From contig JABMSE010000136.1 in assembly GCA_013204645.1 (NCBI GenBank), positions 1 through 40,212 of the forward strand: a stretch of 40,212 bases of DNA, written 5' to 3'. The position numbers and the translations under genes were made by a program. This document shows, one piece after another, positions 4,662 to 33,376 of this stretch; positions within the stretch are counted from its first letter, which is position 1, and every line of letters starts with the position of its first letter. The notes under the pieces were generated by a model. The model had not been told where the DNA came from. It searched no databases and saw only the letters and a list, made by a program, of their open reading frames with translations. The DNA is from Candidatus Saganbacteria bacterium. Lineage in GTDB: Bacteria; Margulisbacteria; WOR-1; O2-12-FULL-45-9.

Positions 4662-5441
4662 TTATTTCTGCTTCTGGTAATTGTTTTGGAACCATTTGTC
4701 AGACCGCAATATCTCTACAACTTTAGCGATATCTTGGGGCGTATCCACGGGTTGGGTAAGATAAGGAGACAGAGCAGAAGCAATTGGGAGGTCATTCTCT
4801 ATGAGGCGCAGCATATCAACCCCTTCGATCAATTCAAGCGGGGTTTGTTTCATTTTTGAAAAAGTCTGTAAAAATGGTGCTCGGAAAGCCATAACACAGG
4901 TTTGGCGATAAAAAACCGATCGCTTTTTTATATCAAATACAGATGCTGGAACAGACTGCCTGGTGAGATAAATAAGCCGATTATTCTGCGATATAACTGC
5001 CTTAATGCGATGATGATTTGTAAGGTCAGCTGGATCAGAAACCACCTCAACTGGGTTTGCACATAGAAAAACACTATCAGAATTAATTAATAATTGAACG
5101 GTAAATTCAATCACCGGAGGCGGTATTGCTGGTTCATCTCCTTGAACATTAACAACTATATCATCATCATTTATATAGCCCATAAGCCGGGCAGCCTCGG
5201 CCACCCGATCCATAGCCGTTGGGGTTTTTGGATCGGTCATAACAAATTTTGCCCCAAAACTCTTGCAGGCACTGGCAACTTTATCTTCACATACCGCCAT
5301 GACAACCTCATCAACATTTCTGGCCAGCAAACTACGTTTATAAACATGCTCGATCATGGGTATTCCCTCAATCATGGTCAGAGGTTTATCCGGGAAACGC
5401 CAGGAACCGAGCCTGGCTGGTATTACAATAAGAGTGCGCAC
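4662..5441 (-). CDS. kdsB: 3-deoxy-manno-octulosonate cytidylyltransferase family protein
   Basis: IPARLGSWRFPDKPL...IPMIEHVYKR, VNVQGDEPAIPPPVIE, and C-terminal GVDMLRLIENDLPI...VDTPQDIAKV are KdsB-like. Confidence 0.88.
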   Translation of the reverse strand: MRTLIVIPARLGSWRFPDKPLTMIEGIPMIEHVYKRSLLARNVDEVVMAVCEDKVASACKSFGAKFVMTDPKTPTAMDRVAEAARLMGYINDDDIVVNVQGDEPAIPPPVIEFTVQLLINSDSVFLCANPVEVVSDPADLTNHHRIKAVISQNNRLIYLTRQSVPASVFDIKKRSVFYRQTCVMAFRAPFLQTFSKMKQTPLELIEGVDMLRLIENDLPIASALSPYLTQPVDTPQDIAKVVEILRSDKWFQNNYQKQK

Positions 5442-8018: not shown

Positions 8019-8711
8019 TCAAGCTGCTCCTTTAGATAACAAAAGATCACAAAGCAACAAATCAAGCCTAGAATCAATATCAACAGAACGTTCTTTTGGC
8101 ATAACATAAGCCAACGTTTCTTTGGTCAAAAAAGATTTTTTTTCAAGCAACCAAGTAACCTTGGCACAAGAAACCGCCCCATTTAACACATACACTTTAG
8201 GAAGATCCTGACGACGAATAGATTGGCTGCTTCCTTCAAACAACAGTTTCATTCGCTTTCCCTCATCTAAAGAATACATCCAATAAGGGCTTTTGCTAGA
8301 GGCTGTAAGTGAAACACAAGCACTGGCACATTGGCTCAAACAGGCTTCAATTCCACCATCAATATCTGTCACTTTGCGCAAAGGGGAAGTAGGCTGAAGT
8401 ACAACCACATAATCATAACCCGGCAAACTAGCAAGCACATGCAAAACAACTTCAATGCCAGGTGTTTCATCCTGTGCTAATTCGGCTGGACGAACAAAAG
8501 GAACCTCACATCCAAATTGTTTGGCAACCTTAATTATTTTGGAGTTCTCGGATGATAAAATGAGCCTATCAATATACTTTGATTTTTTTGCCTCCTCTAC
8601 TGTCCAAGCAATTAAAGGTTTGCCAGCTAGCATGCTAATGTTTTTATCCGGCAAGCCTTTAGATCCTCCCCGGGCCGGAATTACAGCTAAGATCTTTTTA
8701 TTATCAAACAT
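8019..8711 (-). CDS. acylneuraminate cytidylyltransferase-like CMP-sugar synthetase (NeuA/LegF family)
   Basis: ILAVIPARGGSKGLPDKNISMLAGKPLIAWTVEEA; VVVLQPTSPLRKVTDIDGGIE; RRQDLPKVYVLNGAV. Confidence 0.9.
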   Translation of the reverse strand: MFDNKKILAVIPARGGSKGLPDKNISMLAGKPLIAWTVEEAKKSKYIDRLILSSENSKIIKVAKQFGCEVPFVRPAELAQDETPGIEVVLHVLASLPGYDYVVVLQPTSPLRKVTDIDGGIEACLSQCASACVSLTASSKSPYWMYSLDEGKRMKLLFEGSSQSIRRQDLPKVYVLNGAVSCAKVTWLLEKKSFLTKETLAYVMPKERSVDIDSRLDLLLCDLLLSKGAA

Positions 8712-8727
8712 AAACTAAATTTTCCTC

Positions 8728-9456
8728 CTAGAAAAAAAACTTAAACAAGATCAACAACAAAGACGCAAGGGACAACAAAATAGCTATGAGCGCTAGAAAA
8801 ATAGCTAGCTTGTTACCAGATTGCTCTTTTTGACTAAAAGAAGGCGTTTGCCCATTAGCAATGGCCACGGCTACAACATATTCTCCAGCATAAGCAAGCG
8901 ACAAACTGAAGCCAGCACAATAAGGCTTTCCTAAATCATCATGCTTAATATTAATTTGCTTGAAAACGATACCTTTATAGGAATTATCAGCTTTAACAAT
9001 TGCTTCTTTCGCACAAAACAGACCAGCAAAACTAACCAGAGGTTTCTTTTGCAAAAGACAATGGGAAATCTCTTCCTGGCTAAAATTTTGCTGATAAAAA
9101 ACGTCTTCCCTGAAGTCCGCTGGGGTAGAAAAATTATCAATTCTTTCCAGATCAATACCTACCCCAGGCGCGCTAGGCTGAAGAGGAAGAGAAGGCTGGA
9201 ACTGGTAATTATCAAGCTTAGGCAGAGAATTCTCACCTAACGTTGTTGTTCTTAGGAGATCGCCAAAAGTATTAACATTGCTATAGTCTAAAATCTTAAG
9301 GCCCAGTTCCTTTTCTAAAACTGCATACAAGCGATGAACAAAAATTGAATTTCCCAAAGCTTTCCGGTCAATCATTGTTGCTTCAACAACCTTTTCAGGT
9401 GGAATCTTAAGGAAAATGCCTACGATTTTTCTTATTTCCAATGTTTTTTCATCCAT
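8728..9456 (-). CDS. acyl carrier protein-like domain fused to holo-ACP synthase (AcpS-type 4'-phosphopantetheinyl transferase) with C-terminal transmembrane anchor
   Basis: N-term LEIRKIVGIFLKIPPEKVVEATMIDRKALGNSIFVHRLYAVLEKELGLKI...VNTFGDLL (ACP-like; NSI in place of DSL). Middle GVGIDLERIDNF...FSQEEISHCL...FCAKEAIVKA (AcpS-like). C-term NKLAIFLALIAILLSLASLLLILFKFFF (TM helix). Confidence 0.78.
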   Translation of the reverse strand: MDEKTLEIRKIVGIFLKIPPEKVVEATMIDRKALGNSIFVHRLYAVLEKELGLKILDYSNVNTFGDLLRTTTLGENSLPKLDNYQFQPSLPLQPSAPGVGIDLERIDNFSTPADFREDVFYQQNFSQEEISHCLLQKKPLVSFAGLFCAKEAIVKADNSYKGIVFKQINIKHDDLGKPYCAGFSLSLAYAGEYVVAVAIANGQTPSFSQKEQSGNKLAIFLALIAILLSLASLLLILFKFFF

Positions 9457-9459
9457 TGT

Positions 9460-10734
9460 TTAGCGCCACCCTTCCAGACATGATCGGCAGATAAATTCCT
9501 CCCTACCATCGTGGGTTATAACTTTTATTAAACCAGGGCCCTTTAAAGATTGGTCCTCTTTTAAGCTTTTTAAGCAAAGATAACATTTTGCTTGTTTTTT
9601 CTCCGATTTGATCTCGCTAAATTTATCATCAGCATCTTCTGGCAGATTTTTCAGGGTATAACTTTTAATGCGCTCTTTTAACTCACGGATAAAAGAACTG
9701 GCCTTTTTGCCTGCGGTTACCCGATGGTCAAACGCCAAAGTCAAAAGCACCCTTTGTAATCTGGGATCAACTGCTGCAACCCCCAAAATGGCCGATTGAT
9801 TTTGATTAATTAAAGGAACAAAAGAGGTAATGTCTTCAGCCGACAGATCAGTAATCGTAAAGGTAGAACCAGTTAGGTCATCTACACTGAGCTTTTTATC
9901 GATATATTTTTCGCCAGCTTCCAAGAGCTGCGCCTCAATCTCGCCAATACTTTTATCAGCCGTATCCTTTATTTTTACAACTTTCAAGCCATCCCCTAAA
10001 TCCAGAGCAATGCCAACATTGACTCTTTTATAGTAAGCAATTGCCTCCCCAGCAAAATATGCATTGAATTCGGGATATTTTAAAAGTAGCCGGGAAACCT
10101 CAAAAATAATTAACGGCAGAAGAGAGTTTTTAAGGGTGAGTGTTTGATTAATAGACTTAAACAGGTGTTCAACATCAAGATAGATGCTGACAGCACTATT
10201 CATGTTGGCCGACTGAACTTGGGAAAGATAATCAATTTCCAATTTTTTACTATGGCTGATTTTTTTTGTCTCAACCAAATTCGAATCGACCGAAGAAGAG
10301 TTCGCTTTTTTCTCCACCCCTTTTTCCCCACCGAGAATCCCTAATACATCATCTCGGCTAACAAAGCCCTTATTGGCAAAGCGCGCCTTATCAATTCCTT
10401 TTGCTTTAATTAATTCCAAAGCTGCCTTAGAAAAAATCGTTGCACCCACCTCTGTCTTTGGCAGAGATCCAGAAGAAACCTCAGGTTCGCAAACTTGGTC
10501 ATAAATTTTTAATAAAAGTCCATTAACGGCAACCTCGTCCTCAGGTCGGCAAAAGTATTTAATATAGCCATCGGTTTCGGCCTCAACAGAAAAAACAGTT
10601 TTAGAATATTCCAACGCTAAAAGAAGGTCGCCCTTTTTAACCTGATCTCCGCTAGCAAAATTCAAGCTAATGATTTGAGCCGACCGATCATTAGCGTTGA
10701 CTTGGGGAACATAAACTTCTTGCAAAAGCTTCAT
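9460..10734 (-). CDS. 2-oxoacid dehydrogenase E2 component-like dihydrolipoamide acyltransferase with lipoyl domain and C-terminal four-cysteine tail
   Basis: Lipoyl region ALEYSKTVFSVEAETDGYIKYF; E3-binding-like GATIFSKAALELIKAKGIDKARFANKGFVSRDDVLGIL; catalytic region LTLAFDHRVTAGKKASSFIRELKERI; tail CYLC...CRSC. Confidence 0.88.
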   Translation of the reverse strand: MKLLQEVYVPQVNANDRSAQIISLNFASGDQVKKGDLLLALEYSKTVFSVEAETDGYIKYFCRPEDEVAVNGLLLKIYDQVCEPEVSSGSLPKTEVGATIFSKAALELIKAKGIDKARFANKGFVSRDDVLGILGGEKGVEKKANSSSVDSNLVETKKISHSKKLEIDYLSQVQSANMNSAVSIYLDVEHLFKSINQTLTLKNSLLPLIIFEVSRLLLKYPEFNAYFAGEAIAYYKRVNVGIALDLGDGLKVVKIKDTADKSIGEIEAQLLEAGEKYIDKKLSVDDLTGSTFTITDLSAEDITSFVPLINQNQSAILGVAAVDPRLQRVLLTLAFDHRVTAGKKASSFIRELKERIKSYTLKNLPEDADDKFSEIKSEKKQAKCYLCLKSLKEDQSLKGPGLIKVITHDGREEFICRSCLEGWR

Positions 10735-12674
10735 GCTAGCCTCTCCTTTATAGTTTTAATAATAGTACCAACGTCTGGCAAAACACACTTCTCCAGGGAA
10801 GGAGATGACGGAATGGGTAGTGGTAACGAGGCAACCCTGCCCAGCTTAATTGCTTGGCTACTTTCTTCTACAACTGAAGTAATAATTTCACTCCCTACCC
10901 CAGCAAAGGCTGACCCCTCTTCTACTACGAATAGTTTTTTTGTTTTCTCTGCTGCTTGCCTAACAATATTTAATTCAAGTGGATTAAGTGGGGAAAGTTG
11001 AGTTAAAACATAAACTTCGGTTATCAACTCTAACTCCTCAAAAATGACTGGCAGAGAGCTTAAAACCAGATCAACCATCCCTCCATAAGTAACCAAAGTA
11101 ATAGTCGGCTTTGCAAACACTGGGGATATTTTTGCCAAGGGATAGCTGCCTTTGGTTCTCTCATATTTATAATGAGGCAGGCGTTTATCGGCGATTCTTT
11201 TGGCATAATCAGCCTTGTTTTCAATTACAATTACAGGATGTTCACTACTTTCTAAAATGTTTTCATAAATAACGCTGGGGTCTATTAAACTATTCAATGC
11301 TAGAGTAGTAATATTATCAATCCCGATCAAAAATTTATCTAAAGTTTGGGAATGAGTTGGCCCATATCCACGATACCCGCCCATGGGAGTTCTAATAACA
11401 ACTGGGCAGCTAACTTGAGCGTTATACATATGGTGGAATTTTGAGGCGTGGTTAATAATCTGATCCATACAAAGGGTAACAAAATCCCCGAACATAATTT
11501 CTAGAAAGGGCCTAAAACCCGCTAAGGCCAAACCATTAGCAATCCCAGTAATGGCTGGTTCGCTAATAGGAGTTGCAAAAACCCTTTCCGGATACTTTAC
11601 GGAAAGTCCCTTTGCTATTTTAAAAGCCCCACCATATGGCGAGAGCACATCTTCCCCCATAAAAATGACTTTGTCATCTGCGGCCATGGACTTCATAAAA
11701 AAATCATTGATCAATTCTCCCTGCCTCTTTTTAATGGATTCAATGGGAATCCATAAAATAGGTGCTTCTTCTTTTCTAGCCGGATAATAATCTTTTATTG
11801 ATATCTCGTCGGCGCTCAAATGCCGTTTTATGGCAACATCGATTGAGCTATCTACTTCGATGAGCAATTGCTCATAGGCTTCTTGATTCTCCCGGGCAAA
11901 ATTATATAAGGGATCCCGATTTCTGAACGTCTCAATTTCTGCTGGATCGCGGTGGTCATCTCCCTTTGAATGCGGATACAACCTGTACGTCTCAACTAGA
12001 TGAAAGACGGGTTTTTTCTCTTTTCGAACCATATCTATGGACTCTTTGGCCTTTTTTACAAGGTCCTGGGGAGAAAAAGTTTCGCTTCTTAGGGTTCTTA
12101 TTCCAAAAGCTTCTGCCCGTTTAATAATATCGCCGGCAAGATTGGTCTCGCTCTTGGTTGATTGGGCGTAATAATTGTTCTCGCAAATTATCAATAAGGG
12201 GATATCCCATTTGGAAATAATATTCATCGTCTCGTAGACTACTCCCTGCCCTAGAGTTCCATCCCCAATAAATACAACACCGATTGAGTTGCTATTACAT
12301 AATTTTTTGGCAAGAGCCATCCCCGCCGCCACCGGAACTATCCCTCCTTGTATGCCATTGGAATAAAAATTATTGCCACATAAATGCTGGGAACCACCAA
12401 TTCCTGAGCAGACACCGGTTTTTTTGCCCAGGATCTCAGCAATCAGCCCTTCATGGTCTTTTAAGAATGAAATGTAATGACCATGACACCTGTGATTGGA
12501 AAAGACAAAATCACCCTTTTGCAATTGACCAGCAAAAGCAATGGCAGAAAATTCCTGGCCAACACAGGAATGAATGGTCCCACTCAATCTGCCCTCTGAG
12601 AACAACTGCAAAAGCTTCTCCTCCACCCGGCGGATCAAAAGGGCTTCCCTAAATAATTCCAAAGCTTGTGTCAT
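10731..12674 (-). CDS. thiamine-diphosphate-dependent 2-oxoacid dehydrogenase E1, fused alpha-beta subunits
   Basis: Alpha: HSCVGQEFSAI, FIGDGTLGQGVVYETMNIISKWDIPLLIICENN (ThDP motif). Beta: MGEDVLSPYGGAFKIAKGLSVKYPERVFATPISEPAITGIANGLALAGFRPFLEIMFGDF, TPMGGYRGYGPTHSQTLDKFL. Confidence 0.93.
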   Translation of the reverse strand: MTQALELFREALLIRRVEEKLLQLFSEGRLSGTIHSCVGQEFSAIAFAGQLQKGDFVFSNHRCHGHYISFLKDHEGLIAEILGKKTGVCSGIGGSQHLCGNNFYSNGIQGGIVPVAAGMALAKKLCNSNSIGVVFIGDGTLGQGVVYETMNIISKWDIPLLIICENNYYAQSTKSETNLAGDIIKRAEAFGIRTLRSETFSPQDLVKKAKESIDMVRKEKKPVFHLVETYRLYPHSKGDDHRDPAEIETFRNRDPLYNFARENQEAYEQLLIEVDSSIDVAIKRHLSADEISIKDYYPARKEEAPILWIPIESIKKRQGELINDFFMKSMAADDKVIFMGEDVLSPYGGAFKIAKGLSVKYPERVFATPISEPAITGIANGLALAGFRPFLEIMFGDFVTLCMDQIINHASKFHHMYNAQVSCPVVIRTPMGGYRGYGPTHSQTLDKFLIGIDNITTLALNSLIDPSVIYENILESSEHPVIVIENKADYAKRIADKRLPHYKYERTKGSYPLAKISPVFAKPTITLVTYGGMVDLVLSSLPVIFEELELITEVYVLTQLSPLNPLELNIVRQAAEKTKKLFVVEEGSAFAGVGSEIITSVVEESSQAIKLGRVASLPLPIPSSPSLEKCVLPDVGTIIKTIKERLA

Positions 12675-13711
12675 TTGGCTCCTATCTCCTCAAATCTAAG
12701 TGTGGTCTTGTTTTCTTTTGAAAATAAATTCTCCAAGATAGTTTTGATCTCTTGTTTTGATAGCAAACGGGCACGGGAGGAATCATACTCTACCGGAGTT
12801 TTTCCCCCTTTATCCTTGTCTAACATTTGTGAGGAGACGACAAAAAGGCCATCCATCTCTTTTGCGTTTGACTCTTCCATGTGAGTCATTAATTCTTCAT
12901 GATATTTTTCGCCAGCTCGAACCCCCACATTCTCAATTTTAATGTCAGAAGCTTTATAACCCAGGGCAGGAGCAAACATTTCTACCATTGCTTCCGCTAA
13001 AAGACCTATTTTCACTGCCGGCATTTTTAAAATGAATATTTCGCCACCGTCAGCCAGAAAAGTGGCTTTTAAGATCAATCCCACCGCTTGAGGAATCGTC
13101 ATAACAAAACGGGTCATATCCGGATCGGTAACTGTTACCGGGCCACCATTCTTAATCTGCTTCAAAAATATGGGCACGACGGAACCGCGAGAAGCCAGAA
13201 CATTTCCAAATCGTACGCTCGACAAAATAGTTCTCTTTTTCCCGCGATAATTATTGGCAGAAATAGTAATACGCTCGGCCAGTAATTTAGTTGCTCCTAG
13301 CACATTGATTGGATTGGCCGCTTTATCAGTGCTGATATTTATAACCTTCTCTACATTTTCCTCAAGGGCAATTTTAATCACATTCTCGGTTCCCATCACA
13401 TTGGTTTTAACTGCTTCAAAAGGATCAAATTCACAGGCCGAAACATGCTTGAGTGCTGCAGCATGAAAGACAACATCAATGCCTTGCATTGCCCATTTTA
13501 GACGCTCTCGCTCCCTTATATCTCCAAACAAAAAACGAACTCGGCCCTTAGCCCCTACCTCCTGAGAAAGATTAAATTGGGCATCCTCGTCGTTGCTGTA
13601 AACTCGAATAGTTTCGGGATCATAACTTAATAGCTGCCTGACAATTTCACTGCCAATTGACCCCGTGCCCCCGGTAACCAGTATTTTTTTTCCTTTAAAA
13701 TGCTCCCTCAT
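12671..13711 (-). CDS. CapD/PseB/LegB-like nucleotide-sugar 4,6-dehydratase (polysaccharide biosynthesis SDR)
   Basis: ILVTGGTGSIGSEIVRQLL; FHAAALKHVSACEFDPFEAVKTNVMGTENVI; STDKAANPINVLGATKLLAE; SVRFGNVLASRGSVVPIF. Confidence 0.93.
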   Translation of the reverse strand: MREHFKGKKILVTGGTGSIGSEIVRQLLSYDPETIRVYSNDEDAQFNLSQEVGAKGRVRFLFGDIRERERLKWAMQGIDVVFHAAALKHVSACEFDPFEAVKTNVMGTENVIKIALEENVEKVINISTDKAANPINVLGATKLLAERITISANNYRGKKRTILSSVRFGNVLASRGSVVPIFLKQIKNGGPVTVTDPDMTRFVMTIPQAVGLILKATFLADGGEIFILKMPAVKIGLLAEAMVEMFAPALGYKASDIKIENVGVRAGEKYHEELMTHMEESNAKEMDGLFVVSSQMLDKDKGGKTPVEYDSSRARLLSKQEIKTILENLFSKENKTTLRFEEIGAK

Positions 13712-14874
13712 TTTTTTACCTCCCTAATAATACTTTTAAGCTCGTCAGCCACACAATCAATCTGCTTCTCGTTCAAATTATTATAAAACGGCAAGGCAAT
13801 TGTTCTCCCTGACACCTCCTCTGTCACCGGGAAACTACCTTTTTTATAGCCGAATTTTTCCACGTAAAAAGGCTGTAGATGGATGGGAGGAAAATACCTG
13901 TTACATCCAATTCCCTCTCTTCTCAGCCTTCTGATAATCTCATCCCGGTCTGTTTTTGAAAAATCATTATTTAAGCGCACTACATAAACAAACCAGCTTC
14001 TATTAATATTATTTGATCCCTGCGGCGGAAGAACAATGCCGTCTATTTCTGCTAATCTTAAAGCATAAGCTCTTGCAAAACTTTCTCTCTTTGCCAAAAA
14101 CTCGTCTATTCTGCCCAACTGAGCCATCCCCAGGGCACAGTTTATATCGCTTAGACGATAGTTATAGCCCAGGCGTGCATGCGCCAGCCATTCCATTCCG
14201 TCATCCCGGCCCTGGTTCCTTAAACTCGCTGCCAGGTTGGCTATTTCTTCATTATTTGTAACGATCATTCCGCCTTCCCCGGTTGTCATCTGCTTATTTG
14301 GATAAAAGGCAAATACAGAACAATCCCCAAAAGTACCAACTTTCATACCATCCACCTCTGCACCGATCGCTTCACAAGCATCTTCTATGACAAATAAATT
14401 ATGTTTATCGGCTATCTGCTTAATCTTCTCCATAGCACAAGGATAACCAAAAACATGCACCGGCAGTATGGCCTTTGTTTTTTCGGTGATTTTTTCTTCG
14501 ATCTTACTCTCATCAATATTGAACGTATCAGTCCGTATATCGACAAAAACCGGTTTGGCCCTTTCAAAAAGGATACAATTGGCCGACGAAATAAAACTAA
14601 AAGGGGAAGTTATAACCTCATCTCCCTCCTTTATGCCCAGGGCCTTAATACATAAATGCAATCCACTGGTCCCGCTGTTCACGGCTCTGGCATATTTGGT
14701 TCCAACATATCGCGCAAAAGCACTCTCAAATTCCACAAGCTTTGGGCCCAAGCTCAAGTGAGGCGTCTTTAACACATCCACAACAGCCTGGATCTCTGCT
14801 TGGCCTATATCTGGACTGGATAAAGGGATATTATCCTTATCGCCAACCCTAAATTTCTCAGAAGCACTTATCAC
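13708..14874 (-). CDS. DegT/DnrJ/EryC1/StrS family PLP aminotransferase (LegC/PseC-type role likely from context)
   Basis: AVNSGTSGLHLCIKALGIKEGDEVITSPFSFISSAN; VIEDACEAIGAEVDG; FYPNKQMTTGEGGMIVTNN with PLP lysine. Confidence 0.93.
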   Translation of the reverse strand: MISASEKFRVGDKDNIPLSSPDIGQAEIQAVVDVLKTPHLSLGPKLVEFESAFARYVGTKYARAVNSGTSGLHLCIKALGIKEGDEVITSPFSFISSANCILFERAKPVFVDIRTDTFNIDESKIEEKITEKTKAILPVHVFGYPCAMEKIKQIADKHNLFVIEDACEAIGAEVDGMKVGTFGDCSVFAFYPNKQMTTGEGGMIVTNNEEIANLAASLRNQGRDDGMEWLAHARLGYNYRLSDINCALGMAQLGRIDEFLAKRESFARAYALRLAEIDGIVLPPQGSNNINRSWFVYVVRLNNDFSKTDRDEIIRRLRREGIGCNRYFPPIHLQPFYVEKFGYKKGSFPVTEEVSGRTIALPFYNNLNEKQIDCVADELKSIIREVKK

Positions 14875-14887
14875 AGAGCAATTCTCC

Positions 14888-15901
14888 TTATAATTCTATT
14901 AATTCATCCGGCTCAAAATTACGCTTTGCTCGACTGCCAATTATGGCGTCCCATTTCATTGGGCTTATACCATTTCCCGGCCTTTTAACTGTTATGTTTT
15001 TGTCTGAAAAAGAATCGCCCTTAATGATCTTATCAAGCGCAACAATGCTTTTTCTGCCCGCAGCCAGATTCACAAGTTCAGAAGGGGATACTTTTTTCGC
15101 GCCATCTCCCAGAGCTTTTTCTATATTTCTGATGGCAGCCACCATGTTTTCGAGCTCTATTGGATCAAGAGAAGCCTGATGGTCAGGCCCACTCATATTC
15201 TTATCAAGTGTAAAATGCTTTTCTATAATGTCCGCACCCAAAGCGGCAGCAGCTATGGAAACTTCTATCCCAAGAGTGTGATCAGAATACCCCACCGCAA
15301 CCCCAAGTTCTTTTTGCATAGTAGACATGGCCAGCAAATTTACGTCTTTCATGGGAGTCGGATAGGCCACATTGCAATGTAGAACAACCATGTTTTCCTT
15401 TTCTGTTCCCGCCGCTACCAAAACATCGATTGCCTTTTGTATCTCATCCAGGCTTGCCATCCCGGTTGATAATATTATTTTCCTCTTTAAGCTTCCGATC
15501 TTTTTTAAATAAGGTAAATCTGTTATCTCCCCAGACGGTATTTTAAATATTTCAACTCCTAATCTATTTAAAAGCTCTATACTATCCAGGTCAAAGGGAG
15601 ATGACAAAAAGACTATTCCTCTCTTCTGGCAGTGATCCATAAGTTGGCAGTGCGCATTTTCATCCAGTTCCAACTTTTTTAGCATATCCAACTGAGATTC
15701 ATATTTATCGGTCGCTATTTTTTGGTAGGATGCTTTAGGCGCAAATCTGGAGGTTGCTTTCTCTGCCTTAAAAGTTTGAAACTTAATTGCATCCACACCA
15801 CAGCTGGCAGCTCTATCCACCATTTGCATAGCCAATTCAACGCTACCATTGTGGTTTACTCCAGCCTCAGCAATAATAAATATTTTTTCTGCAAAACTCA
15901 T
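14888..15901 (-). CDS. neuB: N-acetylneuraminate / legionaminate synthase family protein
   Basis: FIIAEAGVNHNGSVELAMQMVDRAASCGVDAIKFQTF; HCNVAYPTP; GYSDHTLGIEVSIAAAALGADIIEKHFTLDKNMSGPDH; C-terminal SAF-like RKSIVALDKIIKGDSFSDKNITVKRPGNGISP. Confidence 0.95.
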   Translation of the reverse strand: MSFAEKIFIIAEAGVNHNGSVELAMQMVDRAASCGVDAIKFQTFKAEKATSRFAPKASYQKIATDKYESQLDMLKKLELDENAHCQLMDHCQKRGIVFLSSPFDLDSIELLNRLGVEIFKIPSGEITDLPYLKKIGSLKRKIILSTGMASLDEIQKAIDVLVAAGTEKENMVVLHCNVAYPTPMKDVNLLAMSTMQKELGVAVGYSDHTLGIEVSIAAAALGADIIEKHFTLDKNMSGPDHQASLDPIELENMVAAIRNIEKALGDGAKKVSPSELVNLAAGRKSIVALDKIIKGDSFSDKNITVKRPGNGISPMKWDAIIGSRAKRNFEPDELIEL

Positions 15902-16296
15902 TTATTTTTTCTCATAATTTTTGCCGGGACGCCAAAAGCCACACAATCATCAGGAATATCAGTTTTAACCAAAGAACAAGCTCCAACCACAGCATTTTTG
16001 CCTATCGTAACCCCAGACATAACCACACAATGGCTTCCCAAACAACTGTTCTCCTTAAGGTGCACCTTCCCTTCACGCTTATCAATGGTGGAAACAGAAT
16101 AGATAGAACAATGCGAACCAATCTGAACATTATCCTCAAGGACCACCCCACACTTCGCATTTATATAGGTAAAAGCACCGATATCCGTATTTTTACCTAA
16201 TTTTAAATTGTCCTTATGTTGCACCACCCAGTTATATTTGGTCAGCTTACCTTCTTCGATATCCGGATATTCCCAATTTTTAAATCTTTCCGACAT
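15898..16296 (-). CDS. left-handed beta-helix (hexapeptide) acyltransferase
   Basis: Hexapeptide repeats VVLEDNVQIGSHCSIYSVS..., SCLGSHCVVMSGVTIGKNAVVGACSLVKTDIPDDCVAFGVPAKIMR. Confidence 0.9.
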   Translation of the reverse strand: MSERFKNWEYPDIEEGKLTKYNWVVQHKDNLKLGKNTDIGAFTYINAKCGVVLEDNVQIGSHCSIYSVSTIDKREGKVHLKENSCLGSHCVVMSGVTIGKNAVVGACSLVKTDIPDDCVAFGVPAKIMRKNK

Positions 16297-16309
16297 AATT
16301 TACCATCCC

Positions 16310-17485
16310 CTAATAAGTTATCTGTTTATGCAAAAGTTTCTTGCCCATCCCAATGCTGCTAAGCACTTTGATGATCTGCTGGCTGGCATTCCCTTTTCCG
16401 TATGGAGACTTGCACTTTTTAGCAGCTTCCTTAAATTTCTCATCATAAAGCGCCTTCATAACTGCTTTTTGAATCTTATCTTTCACCGAATCAATAAAGA
16501 TCACATTTTTGGCATGTTCTCTGCCAATATTCCTGGCGCCGATATTTATAGCGGGTAACCTAAGGGTCGTGCTTTCAAGAATGCCGCTACTGGAATTGCC
16601 CACTAAAACATCCGCATACCTGAGCAAGCTAATATATTCCAAATGTGATAAGTTTTTAAAAGGCTTGAGGAAATCTGATTTTTTATTGACCTCGATCTCC
16701 CTAATAATAGCTTCGCTCCCATTATCATTATTTGGATAAATCAATACTGTTTGTAGGTTTATTTCTGAAAGGGCCCGTAATATCACCCGCATATGTTTGC
16801 CAGCAAGATCGATTTCCATTTGATTGGAATGAAAAACACAAACAATTACCTTTTTCCCCGAACAAAGACCTAACTTTTTGAATAATTTCTTTTTATCTAG
16901 AAGCTTTTGCCCAACTATTGAATCCAACCCCAGACTGCCAACATTTAAGACCCGGAAAGGCTCCTCTCCCATTGCCAGCAAACGCGCAGCATGTTTTTTC
17001 GTCGCCGTAAAGTGGAGATGGGCAAATCTTGTTATAGCGTATCTTATGCTCTCATCAATATGGCCGCTGTCAGTCTTATCCCCTCCGGCGATATGAGCAA
17101 TCGGAATATTTAAAGTTGCCGCCGCCAACACCGCTGCCAGCGGCTCCAAGCGATCACCTAAAACAACCAACATATCCGGCTTAAGCTGTGATAAAACTTT
17201 TGCAAAGTTAGCAGTTGCTATGCCTAAAGCTTTGCCATGATAGGCGGCACCATTTGAACCTTTCCGCGGATACATATTGACCGTCCCGCTTAGCTTAAAA
17301 CCGTCCCGGGCTATTTCTTTGACCGTTAAACCGTATTCTCTTAATAAATGCATGCCCGTAACCATCAGGTTCAAATCTAAAGATGTTGACTGATCAATTT
17401 TCTCAATCAATGGCTTCAAAATACCATATTCAGCCCTGGTTCCAGTAACCACAGCAATTTTTCTTTTCATTTTTTCCTTACTCAC
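16310..17485 (-). CDS. neuC: UDP-N-acetylglucosamine 2-epimerase, hydrolysing (NeuC/LegG family)
   Basis: AVVTGTRAEYGILKPLIEKI; VVLGDRLEPLAAVLAAATLNIPIAHIAGGDKTDSGHIDESIRYAITRFAHLHF; GNSSSGILESTTLRLPAINIGARNIGRE. Confidence 0.94.
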   Translation of the reverse strand: MSKEKMKRKIAVVTGTRAEYGILKPLIEKIDQSTSLDLNLMVTGMHLLREYGLTVKEIARDGFKLSGTVNMYPRKGSNGAAYHGKALGIATANFAKVLSQLKPDMLVVLGDRLEPLAAVLAAATLNIPIAHIAGGDKTDSGHIDESIRYAITRFAHLHFTATKKHAARLLAMGEEPFRVLNVGSLGLDSIVGQKLLDKKKLFKKLGLCSGKKVIVCVFHSNQMEIDLAGKHMRVILRALSEINLQTVLIYPNNDNGSEAIIREIEVNKKSDFLKPFKNLSHLEYISLLRYADVLVGNSSSGILESTTLRLPAINIGARNIGREHAKNVIFIDSVKDKIQKAVMKALYDEKFKEAAKKCKSPYGKGNASQQIIKVLSSIGMGKKLLHKQITY

Positions 17486-23406: not shown

Positions 23407-24453
23407 CTAAAAACTAAGGGCCGCATTATACTCGCTGCCCAATTTATTGAATTGTTCCAAAAGCGACTGTGGCACTGGTATTCCTTTTTGAGACCGCACC
23501 CTGTAGAACTTTTTCTCGGGATCACCCGGAACCATAACCGGAACTCCTGCATTAAGAGAGGGCTCGCTTCTTAAAGCTTCCATCATCTTCTTCATGCGCT
23601 TTTTGAACACTGCCGGATCCTCAAAACCATCAATGCGAATTGCACAAAAGAAATGGCCTAATAATCTCTTTTGATCCATTGAGGTTCCGAACATATGAGT
23701 GATCTCTGGCCCAAACGGCGCACCACTCAACAAGCTGCAAAGTATCTCAACCATCATGCTCAAACCAAAACCTTTATAGGTCCCGATGGGCAAGAGGCTT
23801 GCTACTTGCGCTGCATCATCCGTATCTTTTCCCTGGTCATCCACTCCCCACCCCACAGGAACTTTTTCTCCGGCTTCTTTATGTTGCTGGACCTTATTAA
23901 ATGTGGCAACTGTGGTAGCCATATCCAGACAAAACGGCTCCTCTCCGTAACAAGGAGCTACCATGCAAACAGGATTGTTGCCAAAGAAAGGACGCGTTCC
24001 TCCATAGGAAAGGACATGCGCTGTGGCATTGGTAAAACTTAGGCCGATCATGTCTTCTTTGGCGGCCATCAAAGCATAATAGGCAGCCGCCCCAAAATGG
24101 CTCGAATTATAAACTGCCACAGCTCCGATGCCCGCATCGGATGCCAGCTCTATCGCTTTTAACATCCCTTCAGCACCAGCCGCGTGGCCTGGTGCGTGAT
24201 CGCCGTCAAGCTTTCCTGTAGAATTTGTTTTTTTATTGAATTTATACTTTGGGTCCTTATTAAGCCTGCCACCCTCAAACCCCTTTAAATAATGAGGGAA
24301 GAGACGGATACCGTGCGAATCAACTCCCCTAAGCGAAGCTTGAATAATCCCTCCAATTAGATAATTGGCAACGTCGGGGCGCACCCCAATTTTCTCAAGA
24401 ATTAAAAAGAAAAACCTATCTATATCATTTGCTTTAATATCTACACTATTCAT
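23407..24453 (-). CDS. Ldh family oxidoreductase (malate/L-lactate/2-oxoacid reductase, NAD(P)-dependent)
   Basis: ASLRGVDSHGIRLFPHYLKGFEGGRLN; DGDHAPGHAAGAEGMLKAIELASDAGIGAVAVYNSSHFGAAAYYALMAA; MDMATT-like CLDMATTVATFNKV. Confidence 0.92.
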   Translation of the reverse strand: MNSVDIKANDIDRFFFLILEKIGVRPDVANYLIGGIIQASLRGVDSHGIRLFPHYLKGFEGGRLNKDPKYKFNKKTNSTGKLDGDHAPGHAAGAEGMLKAIELASDAGIGAVAVYNSSHFGAAAYYALMAAKEDMIGLSFTNATAHVLSYGGTRPFFGNNPVCMVAPCYGEEPFCLDMATTVATFNKVQQHKEAGEKVPVGWGVDDQGKDTDDAAQVASLLPIGTYKGFGLSMMVEILCSLLSGAPFGPEITHMFGTSMDQKRLLGHFFCAIRIDGFEDPAVFKKRMKKMMEALRSEPSLNAGVPVMVPGDPEKKFYRVRSQKGIPVPQSLLEQFNKLGSEYNAALSF

Positions 24454-26376: not shown

Positions 26377-27093
26377 TTAAGCTGCCTCATCGTATTCAAG
26401 ACGACACCTTTTGTTTTTCTTTCGCCCAGACATAATATGCTGGATCAAACACAAATCTTCTTCGGTTTTAACTATCAAGGAAGATGGTTTGCTCACCGGG
26501 TAATAGCCAACTTTACCACAAAGCATTGAATGCCCCCTCTTTGCATAGGTTTCTTGAAACACTTTATTCCTCCACATCATTATGGAATAAACAAAACGCT
26601 CTACAGGAACAAGGTCCTGGGTCTTAGCAAACATTTCTTCAAGATCAAAATTAAGCGGGATCCCGTTATACAAACAGTGCACTTGTTCTTCTCTTACCGT
26701 TATTAAGCTGTCCAATTTCTCCTGGCAAAAATATTCAATCACTTCTCTTACTTCCTGGCCAGTTTGCAAGGGTGACGTTGGATTAACCCAGGCAGTTATA
26801 TCTCCTCTATTCTTTTGCATAAAATCATAAACCACCGCATCCGACTTCGTAGAAGAACTTCCCAGATCTTTGGGGCGATGATAAAAGCCTACCCCATATC
26901 TTTGCGCAATTTTGGAAAACACAGCATCTTCAGAATTAATTATAATCTCAGCGAAAACCCCAGACTCTTTAGCCGCCTGGATCGCATAATAGATCAGGGG
27001 CTTTCCATCAAGCAACGCTAGATTCTTTTTAGCTAGCCGTGTGCTACCAATTCTTGCCGGAATCATTGCAATTATTTTTTGCTTATCAGCCAT
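26377..27093 (-). CDS. acylneuraminate cytidylyltransferase-like CMP-sugar synthetase
   Basis: IIAMIPARIGSTRLAKKNLALLDGKPLIYYAIQAAKESGVFAEIIINSEDA; WVNPTSPLQTGQEVREVIE. Confidence 0.87.
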   Translation of the reverse strand: MADKQKIIAMIPARIGSTRLAKKNLALLDGKPLIYYAIQAAKESGVFAEIIINSEDAVFSKIAQRYGVGFYHRPKDLGSSSTKSDAVVYDFMQKNRGDITAWVNPTSPLQTGQEVREVIEYFCQEKLDSLITVREEQVHCLYNGIPLNFDLEEMFAKTQDLVPVERFVYSIMMWRNKVFQETYAKRGHSMLCGKVGYYPVSKPSSLIVKTEEDLCLIQHIMSGRKKNKRCRLEYDEAA

Positions 27094-30952: not shown

Positions 30953-32669
30953 ATTTATTCTTCTTTCTTTCTAAAATCGCCACTTCCATGTTCTTTACCA
31001 ATTCTTCTCTAGTTACTGGATATGCCCTAGCTTCCTGGAACTTCCTGATCGGAGCTTTTCTGGCTTTAATAAACCCAGGCATATCATTTATAACCTTATT
31101 AAAGGATCTTAGCCCTGACTCAACATCATAAAAAATAACCCCACTCTCCCTTAATTCCTGATAGATTTCTTTCCCCAAAGGAATAACACAATCAAATTCA
31201 GCTTGTGGATGAAAAACAAGAGTGGGCACTTCTGATTGGACCGATTCGGCAAAGCCGGTACTAATAGCATCCCATAAAACAATATCTACTTTATCAAAAA
31301 GAGTGCTTGGTGCTTTATCGGTTAGCGCAACTGTTCCATTTTCTAATTCTTGAGCAAAATATTTCTTTATGGGATCATTAACGTAGGTCCATAAATACTT
31401 ATAAATGATTTTTGTGTTGGGATAAGTTCGCCTAATCTCTTTGAGCAATTTAAGCACATTTACTCTGTGCTGATATTTCTTCTCCTTACTTCTTTCATCA
31501 AGATCAGGAACAAAATCCCAAAGTGGACTCGATGGATATAGAATTGTCATTTTTTTGGGGTCGACAGGCCTTAAAGCAACTTTCTTTATAGAGGACAAAT
31601 ACGTACTTCCCAAACTAAGAATCTTAAGATCATCAAGCTTTCTGCGGTAAATCGCATCTTCACCCTTTATCCAATCAGAATTTATCTTGGCCCACGTCAA
31701 ATAGTAATCCAAGAATTGCAATTCATTATGCATTAATCTTGATTGTGTGCAGATCTCCCCCCCACCATGCATATGACAGATCAAAAGGGCTCCTTTACGT
31801 TTTGCCAAAAGCGCAAATATCCTAAAGTTTTCATTCCAAGAATAACCAGTAAAGGAATGCACCTCTTCTATCTTCCAATTATTAATCTGCGACTCATAAA
31901 AATCATATCTTGCCTTAAACCCTTCAATAATCGAGATTGGCAAAACATGATCAATTAGATTGGCAAATATTTTAGACAACTCCCGTTCTTTTTCTTGCGT
32001 CAAACCGCCCAAAAATGTTTTATCCCAACTTAAAAATACTCTTTCGCAACATTCCCTTATCTGCTGCCTGATAATATGATTGATTTCATCTTGATTCCCT
32101 TGAAAATTAAAACGCAGTATCCTGCTAAAAGGAAAAATCTGCTTCATCCAACCAGAATACTCCCCTACTATTTTTGGTTTTGTCATACAAACATAAACAT
32201 TATTAAAATAAGCTATCATTTTTCTCGCAAACGTTTTAAGAGTAAAAGATTTTTTTGGCAACAGCCTATCTAGCGGCCTGGGAAATTCGATTTCCCTCAA
32301 CTCAAAAGGGATGTGAGAATCATTAAGTATTGCCCTAATATCATTCATGATACTATAATTAATAAAGTAATCGTGATAATAGTTTAAAATTGCTTTAGAT
32401 GTATTTTCAAAATATTGCCATTTACCCGCAGCTTTAGGGTAATTTGCGTCTGTTTTTGCTTTTATTCGGCATGAGATTCTTAACAACCTTTCGATAAAAA
32501 TATTCACTGCCGTAAAAATTGGGGCACGCAATAAAAATGCGAGCTCATTGAGATCATAATTTTTATATATCGGCAATCCCTTTTTGAATATTTCCAGAAT
32601 AACGCGATCAATTAGCTCATTGGCATTTTTAATTGCTAATTCTCGGTTATAATAATCGGTCCAATCCAT
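30945..32669 (-). CDS. putative transferase, possibly LIC12162-like surface carbohydrate transferase
   Basis: ALLICHMHGGGEICTQSRLMHNELQFLDYYLTWAKINSDW; VDIVLWDAISTGFAESVQSEVPTLVFHP. By-eye resemblance only. Confidence 0.55.
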   Translation of the reverse strand: MDWTDYYNRELAIKNANELIDRVILEIFKKGLPIYKNYDLNELAFLLRAPIFTAVNIFIERLLRISCRIKAKTDANYPKAAGKWQYFENTSKAILNYYHDYFINYSIMNDIRAILNDSHIPFELREIEFPRPLDRLLPKKSFTLKTFARKMIAYFNNVYVCMTKPKIVGEYSGWMKQIFPFSRILRFNFQGNQDEINHIIRQQIRECCERVFLSWDKTFLGGLTQEKERELSKIFANLIDHVLPISIIEGFKARYDFYESQINNWKIEEVHSFTGYSWNENFRIFALLAKRKGALLICHMHGGGEICTQSRLMHNELQFLDYYLTWAKINSDWIKGEDAIYRRKLDDLKILSLGSTYLSSIKKVALRPVDPKKMTILYPSSPLWDFVPDLDERSKEKKYQHRVNVLKLLKEIRRTYPNTKIIYKYLWTYVNDPIKKYFAQELENGTVALTDKAPSTLFDKVDIVLWDAISTGFAESVQSEVPTLVFHPQAEFDCVIPLGKEIYQELRESGVIFYDVESGLRSFNKVINDMPGFIKARKAPIRKFQEARAYPVTREELVKNMEVAILERKKNKYE

Positions 32670-33376
32670 TACCGCGCTCCTCTATTATCACTGTGCATCA
32701 CCTCATATTTCATCTCCGCAATTTTCCAATCATCTTCGTTATCAATATCCTGGACCTCAGATCCAGGAACTTCTATTGCCACCATATTAGGTGACAATAT
32801 TTTGCTGTTTTTCAAGAAAGCTTTGACCTTGAACCAATAATATTGACCGGCATCGTGATACGCTGGCGGTAAATCTTGTGATCTAACAGAAAGATTTTCA
32901 GGCATGATCATTTCTACCCTTTCATTCTCGATCTTTAAAGCCCGTTGGATCGGATAGGCATATCTCACAACAGCTAGGGCCGCATCCGCATTACTTTCCT
33001 GTAAAAGCCGGTAACCTTTCTTCAGCTTATCAGCTGAAATAAAAGGGGCCGTCGGATAAATTGAGCAACAACATTCAAATTCTTGACCACGCTTTTTATA
33101 TTCAACAAGCACTTCTTCAATAACCTCAGCAGTTGTGGCAAAATCATTTGAAGTTTTTTCTGATCTAAGGAAAGGCACTTTAGCACCTAATTTCCCGGCA
33201 ATTTCGGCAATTTCCGCATCGTCCGTAGAAACCATGACTTCTGCAAAACAACCTGATTCCAGGGCTGCTTCTATTGAATATTTAATAATTGGGAACCCTA
33301 AAAAATCCTTTATATTTTTACGGGGAATCCTTTTGCTTCCTCCCCTAGCAGGGATAATAGCTAAAGCTTTACTCAT
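32669..33376 (-). CDS. pseF: pseudaminic acid cytidylyltransferase
   Basis: ALAIIPARGGSKRIPRKNIKDFLGFPIIKYSIEAALESGCFAEVMVSTDDAEIAEIA; CCSIYPTAPFISADKLKKG; DAGQYYWF; VQDIDNEDDWKIAEMKYEVM. Confidence 0.94.
   Translation of the reverse strand: MSKALAIIPARGGSKRIPRKNIKDFLGFPIIKYSIEAALESGCFAEVMVSTDDAEIAEIAGKLGAKVPFLRSEKTSNDFATTAEVIEEVLVEYKKRGQEFECCCSIYPTAPFISADKLKKGYRLLQESNADAALAVVRYAYPIQRALKIENERVEMIMPENLSVRSQDLPPAYHDAGQYYWFKVKAFLKNSKILSPNMVAIEVPGSEVQDIDNEDDWKIAEMKYEVMHSDNRGAR
32695..32752 (-). repeat. diverged direct repeat, pseF 3' end (copy B, native pseF context)
   Basis: Counterpart of 28930-28987. Confidence 0.85.

Follow-up and report, generated by a model that had tools for sequence, protein, structure and literature searches.

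A tail-anchored ACP-AcpS fusion protein encoded with E1 and E2 genes in surface-glycan loci and its possible part in glycan acylation

The window (the whole stretch of 40,212 nucleotides that was analyzed, from Candidatus Saganbacteria contig JABMSE010000136.1) encodes a 242-aa protein joining an ACP domain, an AcpS-type phosphopantetheinyl transferase domain, and a predicted tail anchor. The first-pass annotation was wrong to call this a stand-alone ACP: the gene comes third in a conserved E1-E2-ACP-AcpS cassette found in surface-glycan loci, and this membership points to the role of the protein. The parts of the cassette are established by sequence and structural model (Table 1). The ACP-AcpS protein is probably the carrier in a pathway dedicated to supplying acyl groups to a surface glycan. 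Evenly poised is the fuller proposal that a form of glycan acylation has spread horizontally in which the ACP, self-priming and tail-anchored, would receive the acyl group from a dedicated 2-oxoacid dehydrogenase and serve in direct acylation of a sugar, acyl-CoA never being formed.

Table 1. Features of the cassette and its neighbors in the window.
Feature	Position	Strand	Basis
PseF-like cytidylyltransferase	8019..8711	-	below PseF equivalog cut-off
ACP-AcpS-tail-anchor fusion protein, 242 aa	8728..9456	-	Pfam, 36-sequence alignment, AF2
C-terminal hydrophobic helix (predicted tail anchor), residues 214-241	8734..8817	-	AF2, Kyte-Doolittle
AcpS-type phosphopantetheinyl transferase domain, residues 97-201; D102, E151, K155 kept; 188-189 = Ala-Tyr	8854..9168	-	Pfam, alignment
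ACP domain, residues 1-75	9232..9456	-	profile vs PDB sequences; AF2 and Foldseek
Ser37 codon (TCA), predicted 4'-phosphopantetheine site, start of helix II	9346..9348	-	invariant in 36 aligned sequences; AF2
E2: lipoyl domain (Lys45), subunit-binding-like segment (read by eye), acyltransferase core with HRVTAG for HxxxDG, C-terminal Cys4 (2 x CxxC) extension	9460..10734	-	
E1: fused alpha-beta thiamin-diphosphate 2-oxoacid dehydrogenase	10731..12674	-	
PseB-like UDP-GlcNAc 4,6-dehydratase	12671..13711	-	below PseB equivalog cut-off
PseC-like DegT aminotransferase	13708..14874	-	Pfam DegT; PseC name inferred
NeuB/PseI-like nonulosonic acid synthase	14888..15901	-	
Hexapeptide (LbH) acyltransferase, candidate acceptor enzyme	15898..16296	-	Pfam; NCBIfam EpsC/NeuD-like, below cut-offs
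NeuC-type UDP-sugar 2-epimerase	16310..17485	-	416 bits, cut-off 236

The ACP-AcpS fusion protein

The open reading frame at 8728-9456 on the minus strand had been delimited correctly in the first-pass annotation, and its reading as ACP, AcpS, and tail anchor in one polypeptide was borne out by profile searches, AF2 models searched with Foldseek, Pfam, and a hydrophobic helix. The full-length AF2 model had a pLDDT of 90.9. Single-sequence Pfam was blind to the ACP half (PF00550 gave no match in the window protein and a weak match in 1 of 36 family members), so a profile search was needed. When a profile of 24 N-terminal domains was compared with PDB sequences the 11 best matches were all ACPs (best E=0.0023), and in the two profile-PDB alignments shown the family Ser aligned with the ACP attachment Ser. 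An AF2 model of the N-terminal domain alone matched almost only ACPs in the PDB by Foldseek (TM 0.63-0.79), none with an E-value below 0.001, as is usual for such a small domain. The proposal that the N-terminal ~70 residues are ACP-like was upheld by these profile and structure matches.

Helices in the ACP half of the full-protein model spanned residues 3-16, 31-34, 37-51, and 64-72. Ser37 opens helix 37-51, which places the Ser of the attachment motif GNSI where ACP helix II starts, and it was invariant in the 36 aligned sequences. GNSI, correctly reported as altered, is one variant of a family motif, [G/S/N/T]-S-[I/V/L]. The canonical Asp before the Ser (D-S-[LM] motif) was absent from all aligned members, and its replacement throughout argues that the ACP half belongs to a divergent ACP branch and is no textbook case.

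The AcpS landmarks noted earlier at residues ~95-205 were recovered by two models, each above its cut-off: PF01648 (Pfam ACPS) at residues 98-197 (47.2 bits, cut-off 25) and TIGR00556 (45.5 bits, cut-off 45.35). Residues D102, E151, and K155 were invariant in 36/36 aligned sequences, the window included; we take D102 and E151 to be the Asp/Glu metal ligands and K155 the lysine of the AcpS KEAxxK motif. The C-terminal S-x-S-H motif of AcpS is altered in the window copy, which reads SLSLAYAG, with Ala188-Tyr189 in place of the Ser-His that 90% or more of the family retains; the L078 relative also has Tyr replacing His. Because Ala-Tyr stands where Ser-His is usual, the window AcpS may be weak or inactive. 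These substitutions, together with a canonical AcpS encoded elsewhere in the window genome, would suit an alternative in which the AcpS domain, at least in the window copy, is inactive or only structural, the housekeeping AcpS arms the ACP, and the fusion survives as a relic or serves for docking. This alternative is unlikely, as the three residues are invariant and the complete motif is retained in most relatives. Self-priming of the ACP by its fused AcpS is plausible from the retained metal ligands and Lys, though the window copy carries Ala188-Tyr189.

The last ~28 residues had been described as strongly hydrophobic, in agreement with the helix at residues 214-241 (Kyte-Doolittle mean 3.06 over 18 residues). 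Among the 36 aligned sequences 28 had a tail anchor and eight had none. The remark that the protein does not belong to a described family was consistent with literature searches limited to open-access sources. No description of the E1-E2 and ACP-AcpS combination was found in that literature, an absence that is not proof of novelty.

The E1 and E2 partners and recurrence of the cassette

In the window, the E1 and E2 genes overlap by 4 bases and the ACP-AcpS gene begins 3 bases past E2. Both partners scored well below the NCBIfam equivalog cut-offs for pyruvate dehydrogenase: E1 at 213 bits (cut-off 394) and E2 at 118 bits (cut-off 722). E1 was nearest to the pyruvate dehydrogenase models, though far below their cut-offs. 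Across the family, the E2 core motif was HRVxEG or similar, compared with HxxxDG. Two CxxC pairs ended every intact E2 adjoining an ACP-AcpS gene, and this Cys4 extension was absent from the E2s of the five loci with a free ACP described below. It was also present on two E2s (L098, L105) with no ACP-AcpS gene found nearby. In the window E2 the extension lies at 9463-9585 on the minus strand.

The window E1 paired with an Omnitrophota E1 (L054) in a quick tree, with support of 91. No second E2 was matched in the window genome with the window E2 as query, and relatives of the same class gave no match to this E2 beyond a lipoyl-like segment. For these two reasons the window E1-E2 pair looks acquired. 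Elsewhere, the window genome encodes an E3, a lipoyl/octanoyl transferase, and two canonical ACPs, besides the canonical AcpS.

A search baited with the fused E1 yielded 80 loci. Forty of these contained E1 (alpha-beta fusion), E2, and ACP-AcpS in this order on one strand, representing about ten phyla; every ACP-AcpS relative was reached via E1, and co-occurrence with E1-E2 is thus ascertained by the search itself. The start of a 41st cassette, cut by the contig end, was found in L094. A distant cassette occurred in L101, a record titled as a Klebsiella pneumoniae MAG, a title that looks doubtful.

The ACP-AcpS fusion is rare. A first scan of genome contigs with the fusion protein itself as query found no relatives, and a scan of 75 other genomes of the window's phylum gave matches to the AcpS region only. 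Profile scans detected the full fusion in 1 of 395 Planctomycetota genomes and 1 of 386 Omnitrophota genomes, each being the genome of the probe locus itself, and in 2 of 398 genomes of a Bacteroidota-centred scan, both previously found loci (L073, L090). Three further Omnitrophota near-matches were short open reading frames covering the AcpS region only. Against plasmids, tblastn with the window protein gave two weak AcpS-like matches and the L060 protein gave none. No fusion relatives were found when PHROGs and viral contigs were scanned with the family alignment.

Glycan neighborhoods and variant loci

The window cassette is flanked by a PseB-like and a PseF-like gene and belongs to a glycan locus of nonulosonic-acid type. 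Pfam cytidylyltransferases were found at 8019-8711, 26377-27093, and 32669-33376, and a putative KdsB-like open reading frame at 4662-5441; their presence in one locus suggests several CMP-activated sugars. Two dehydrogenases of this locus, a D-2-hydroxyacid dehydrogenase (1678-2634) and an Ldh_2-type dehydrogenase (23407-24453), are possible sources or users of 2-oxo acids.

Across loci, the neighbors were glycosyltransferases, polymerases, and sugar acyltransferases, according to Pfam and NCBIfam searches of representatives and reading of the loci. These neighbors, and the lack of any Pfam ketosynthase or adenylation domain among the window genes scanned, speak against the view that E1-E2-ACP supplies a starter or extender to a polyketide, nonribosomal-peptide, or fatty-acid-like chain instead of a sugar. 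That view is improbable, even with distant relatives L093 and L098 adjoining large proteins that may be synthases (judged by ORF size only) and with NapB/NapD/NapC-type enzymes that load an ACP with C2 units in the making of nonribosomal peptides (PMC7570522).

A hexapeptide (LbH) acyltransferase gene lay no more than two genes upstream of E1 in 29 of 34 testable loci (those cassette loci whose contig includes same-strand genes upstream), many of which are related Chitinophagaceae and hence not independent. When gene positions were shuffled within loci the mean was 8.15, and 29 was reached in 0 of 20000 permutations. In the window, E1 has no adjacent LbH gene; the closest one comes fourth among the genes upstream. 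In L073 an Acyl_transf_3 gene lies between the LbH gene and E1. Both Bacteroidota LbH proteins that were scanned scored above the cut-off of a WcaF-type exopolysaccharide acetyltransferase family. LbH neighbors in other loci look like acetyl-CoA-dependent acetyltransferases, a likeness which means that the ACP need not be their donor.

Two variant arrangements were seen. In five loci (L084, L107, L118, L121, and L123) a free ACP-like open reading frame of ~80 aa with a W-D-S-[M/F] motif directly preceded E1. Only that of L084 passed PF00550; a profile of the five matched many ACPs in the PDB. Aligned with hhalign, the fused ACP domain and the five free ACPs gave a weak score (probability 7, E 0.005), and their homology therefore rests on fold and on separate matches to ACPs in the PDB. 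MBOAT genes were observed near the free ACP-E1-E2 genes of L107 (8772-13566) and L118 (6338-11971), a Dlt-like arrangement without DltA.

In the second arrangement, a lipoyl domain was fused to a hexapeptide acyltransferase beside E1. This fusion was Pfam-confirmed in L088, L108, L127, L130, and L131, and BLAST suggested further cases in other loci. To our knowledge, fusion of a lipoyl domain to a hexapeptide/PglD-like (PglD/NeuD-like) sugar acyltransferase has not been described; it was observed beside fused E1 at 10919-11935 in L131, 10995-12023 in L128, 10914-12017 in L088, and 10899-11984 in L108. These four fusions sit in nonulosonic-acid (pseudaminic/legionaminic-type) gene clusters, that of L131 additionally with LplA and E3. 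Judged by domain content, the acyl group in such proteins can pass from lipoyl to sugar enzyme within one chain.

Proposed acyl route and comparison with known systems

Taken together, conserved gene order, the free-ACP and lipoyl-LbH variants, and the NapB/NapD precedent suggest that acyl groups pass from E1 through E2 and ACP to a sugar. The AcpS domain, with its key residues kept, would take 4'-phosphopantetheine from CoA and attach it to the Ser37 of its own ACP, in the same chain or across chains. E1 would decarboxylate a 2-oxo acid (or use a ketose phosphate as its source of a C2 unit) and acylate the lipoyl group of E2 reductively, as their domains suggest, with E3 presumably borrowed from elsewhere in the genome. 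The E2 core would then hand the acyl group to the ACP phosphopantetheine instead of CoA, and the Cys4 extension may dock the ACP. The predicted tail anchor would hold acyl-ACP at the membrane, the likely site of glycan assembly. Finally, a hexapeptide acyltransferase would use acyl-ACP for O- or N-acylation of a sugar; in the window the probable acceptor is a nonulosonic acid of pseudaminic/legionaminic type, or a precursor of it. Production of free acyl-CoA by E1-E2 in the usual way, with ACP-AcpS in an unrelated role as an assembly or regulatory subunit, would fit the E2-type core kept in E2 and the resemblance of LbH neighbors to acetyl-CoA users, but is highly doubtful in view of the invariance of Ser37, the linkage of E1-E2 to ACP-AcpS, and the parallel free-ACP-E1-E2 arrangement.

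If true, direct acyl transfer from the dehydrogenase through ACP-AcpS would provide a CoA-independent donor for surface-polysaccharide acylation in many bacteria and explain E1/E2 genes inside glycan clusters, and it predicts unusual N- or O-acyl groups on cassette-associated glycans. For engineering, a carrier this compact that arms itself and is tethered to the membrane would be a useful part as well.

Two-component transketolase/dehydrogenase-like enzymes that place a C2 unit on an ACP and not on CoA are summarized in a published account: NapB/NapD with NapC (naphthyridinomycin) and DinU/DinS with DinT (dnacin B1) (PMC7570522, citing Peng et al. 2012). As there, a dehydrogenase-like pair in the cassette would load an ACP rather than CoA. 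The Nap and Din systems differ in that their ACP is a protein of its own, with neither AcpS fusion nor tail anchor, and in their nonribosomal-peptide product; this is a comparison of described systems rather than of sequences.

E1 and E2 belong to the same domain families as those of the pyruvate dehydrogenase complex, from which the cassette differs in its fused E1 alpha-beta, the replaced Asp of the E2 HxxxDG motif, the Cys4 extension, and the ACP-AcpS partner. The fungal type I FAS alpha chain, which was among the closest sequence and structure matches, also unites its ACP with an AcpS-type (integral phosphopantetheinyl transferase) domain in one polypeptide; it is part of a giant synthase, unlike the small anchored protein described here.

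In the Dlt pathway, D-Ala is adenylated by DltA. The cassette differs in using E1-E2 and in fusing the carrier to AcpS, and no AMP-binding or MBOAT match, as would mark a DltA-type enzyme with an MBOAT DltB, was found among the window genes scanned. DltC has been described as an interaction hub for AcpS, DltA, and DltB (PMC9338922). The likeness to Dlt (DltA-DltC-DltB) would lie in a dedicated carrier protein for an acyl thioester, which in Dlt serves a membrane acyltransferase acting on a surface polymer, and MBOAT also occurs in the free-ACP relatives L107 and L118.
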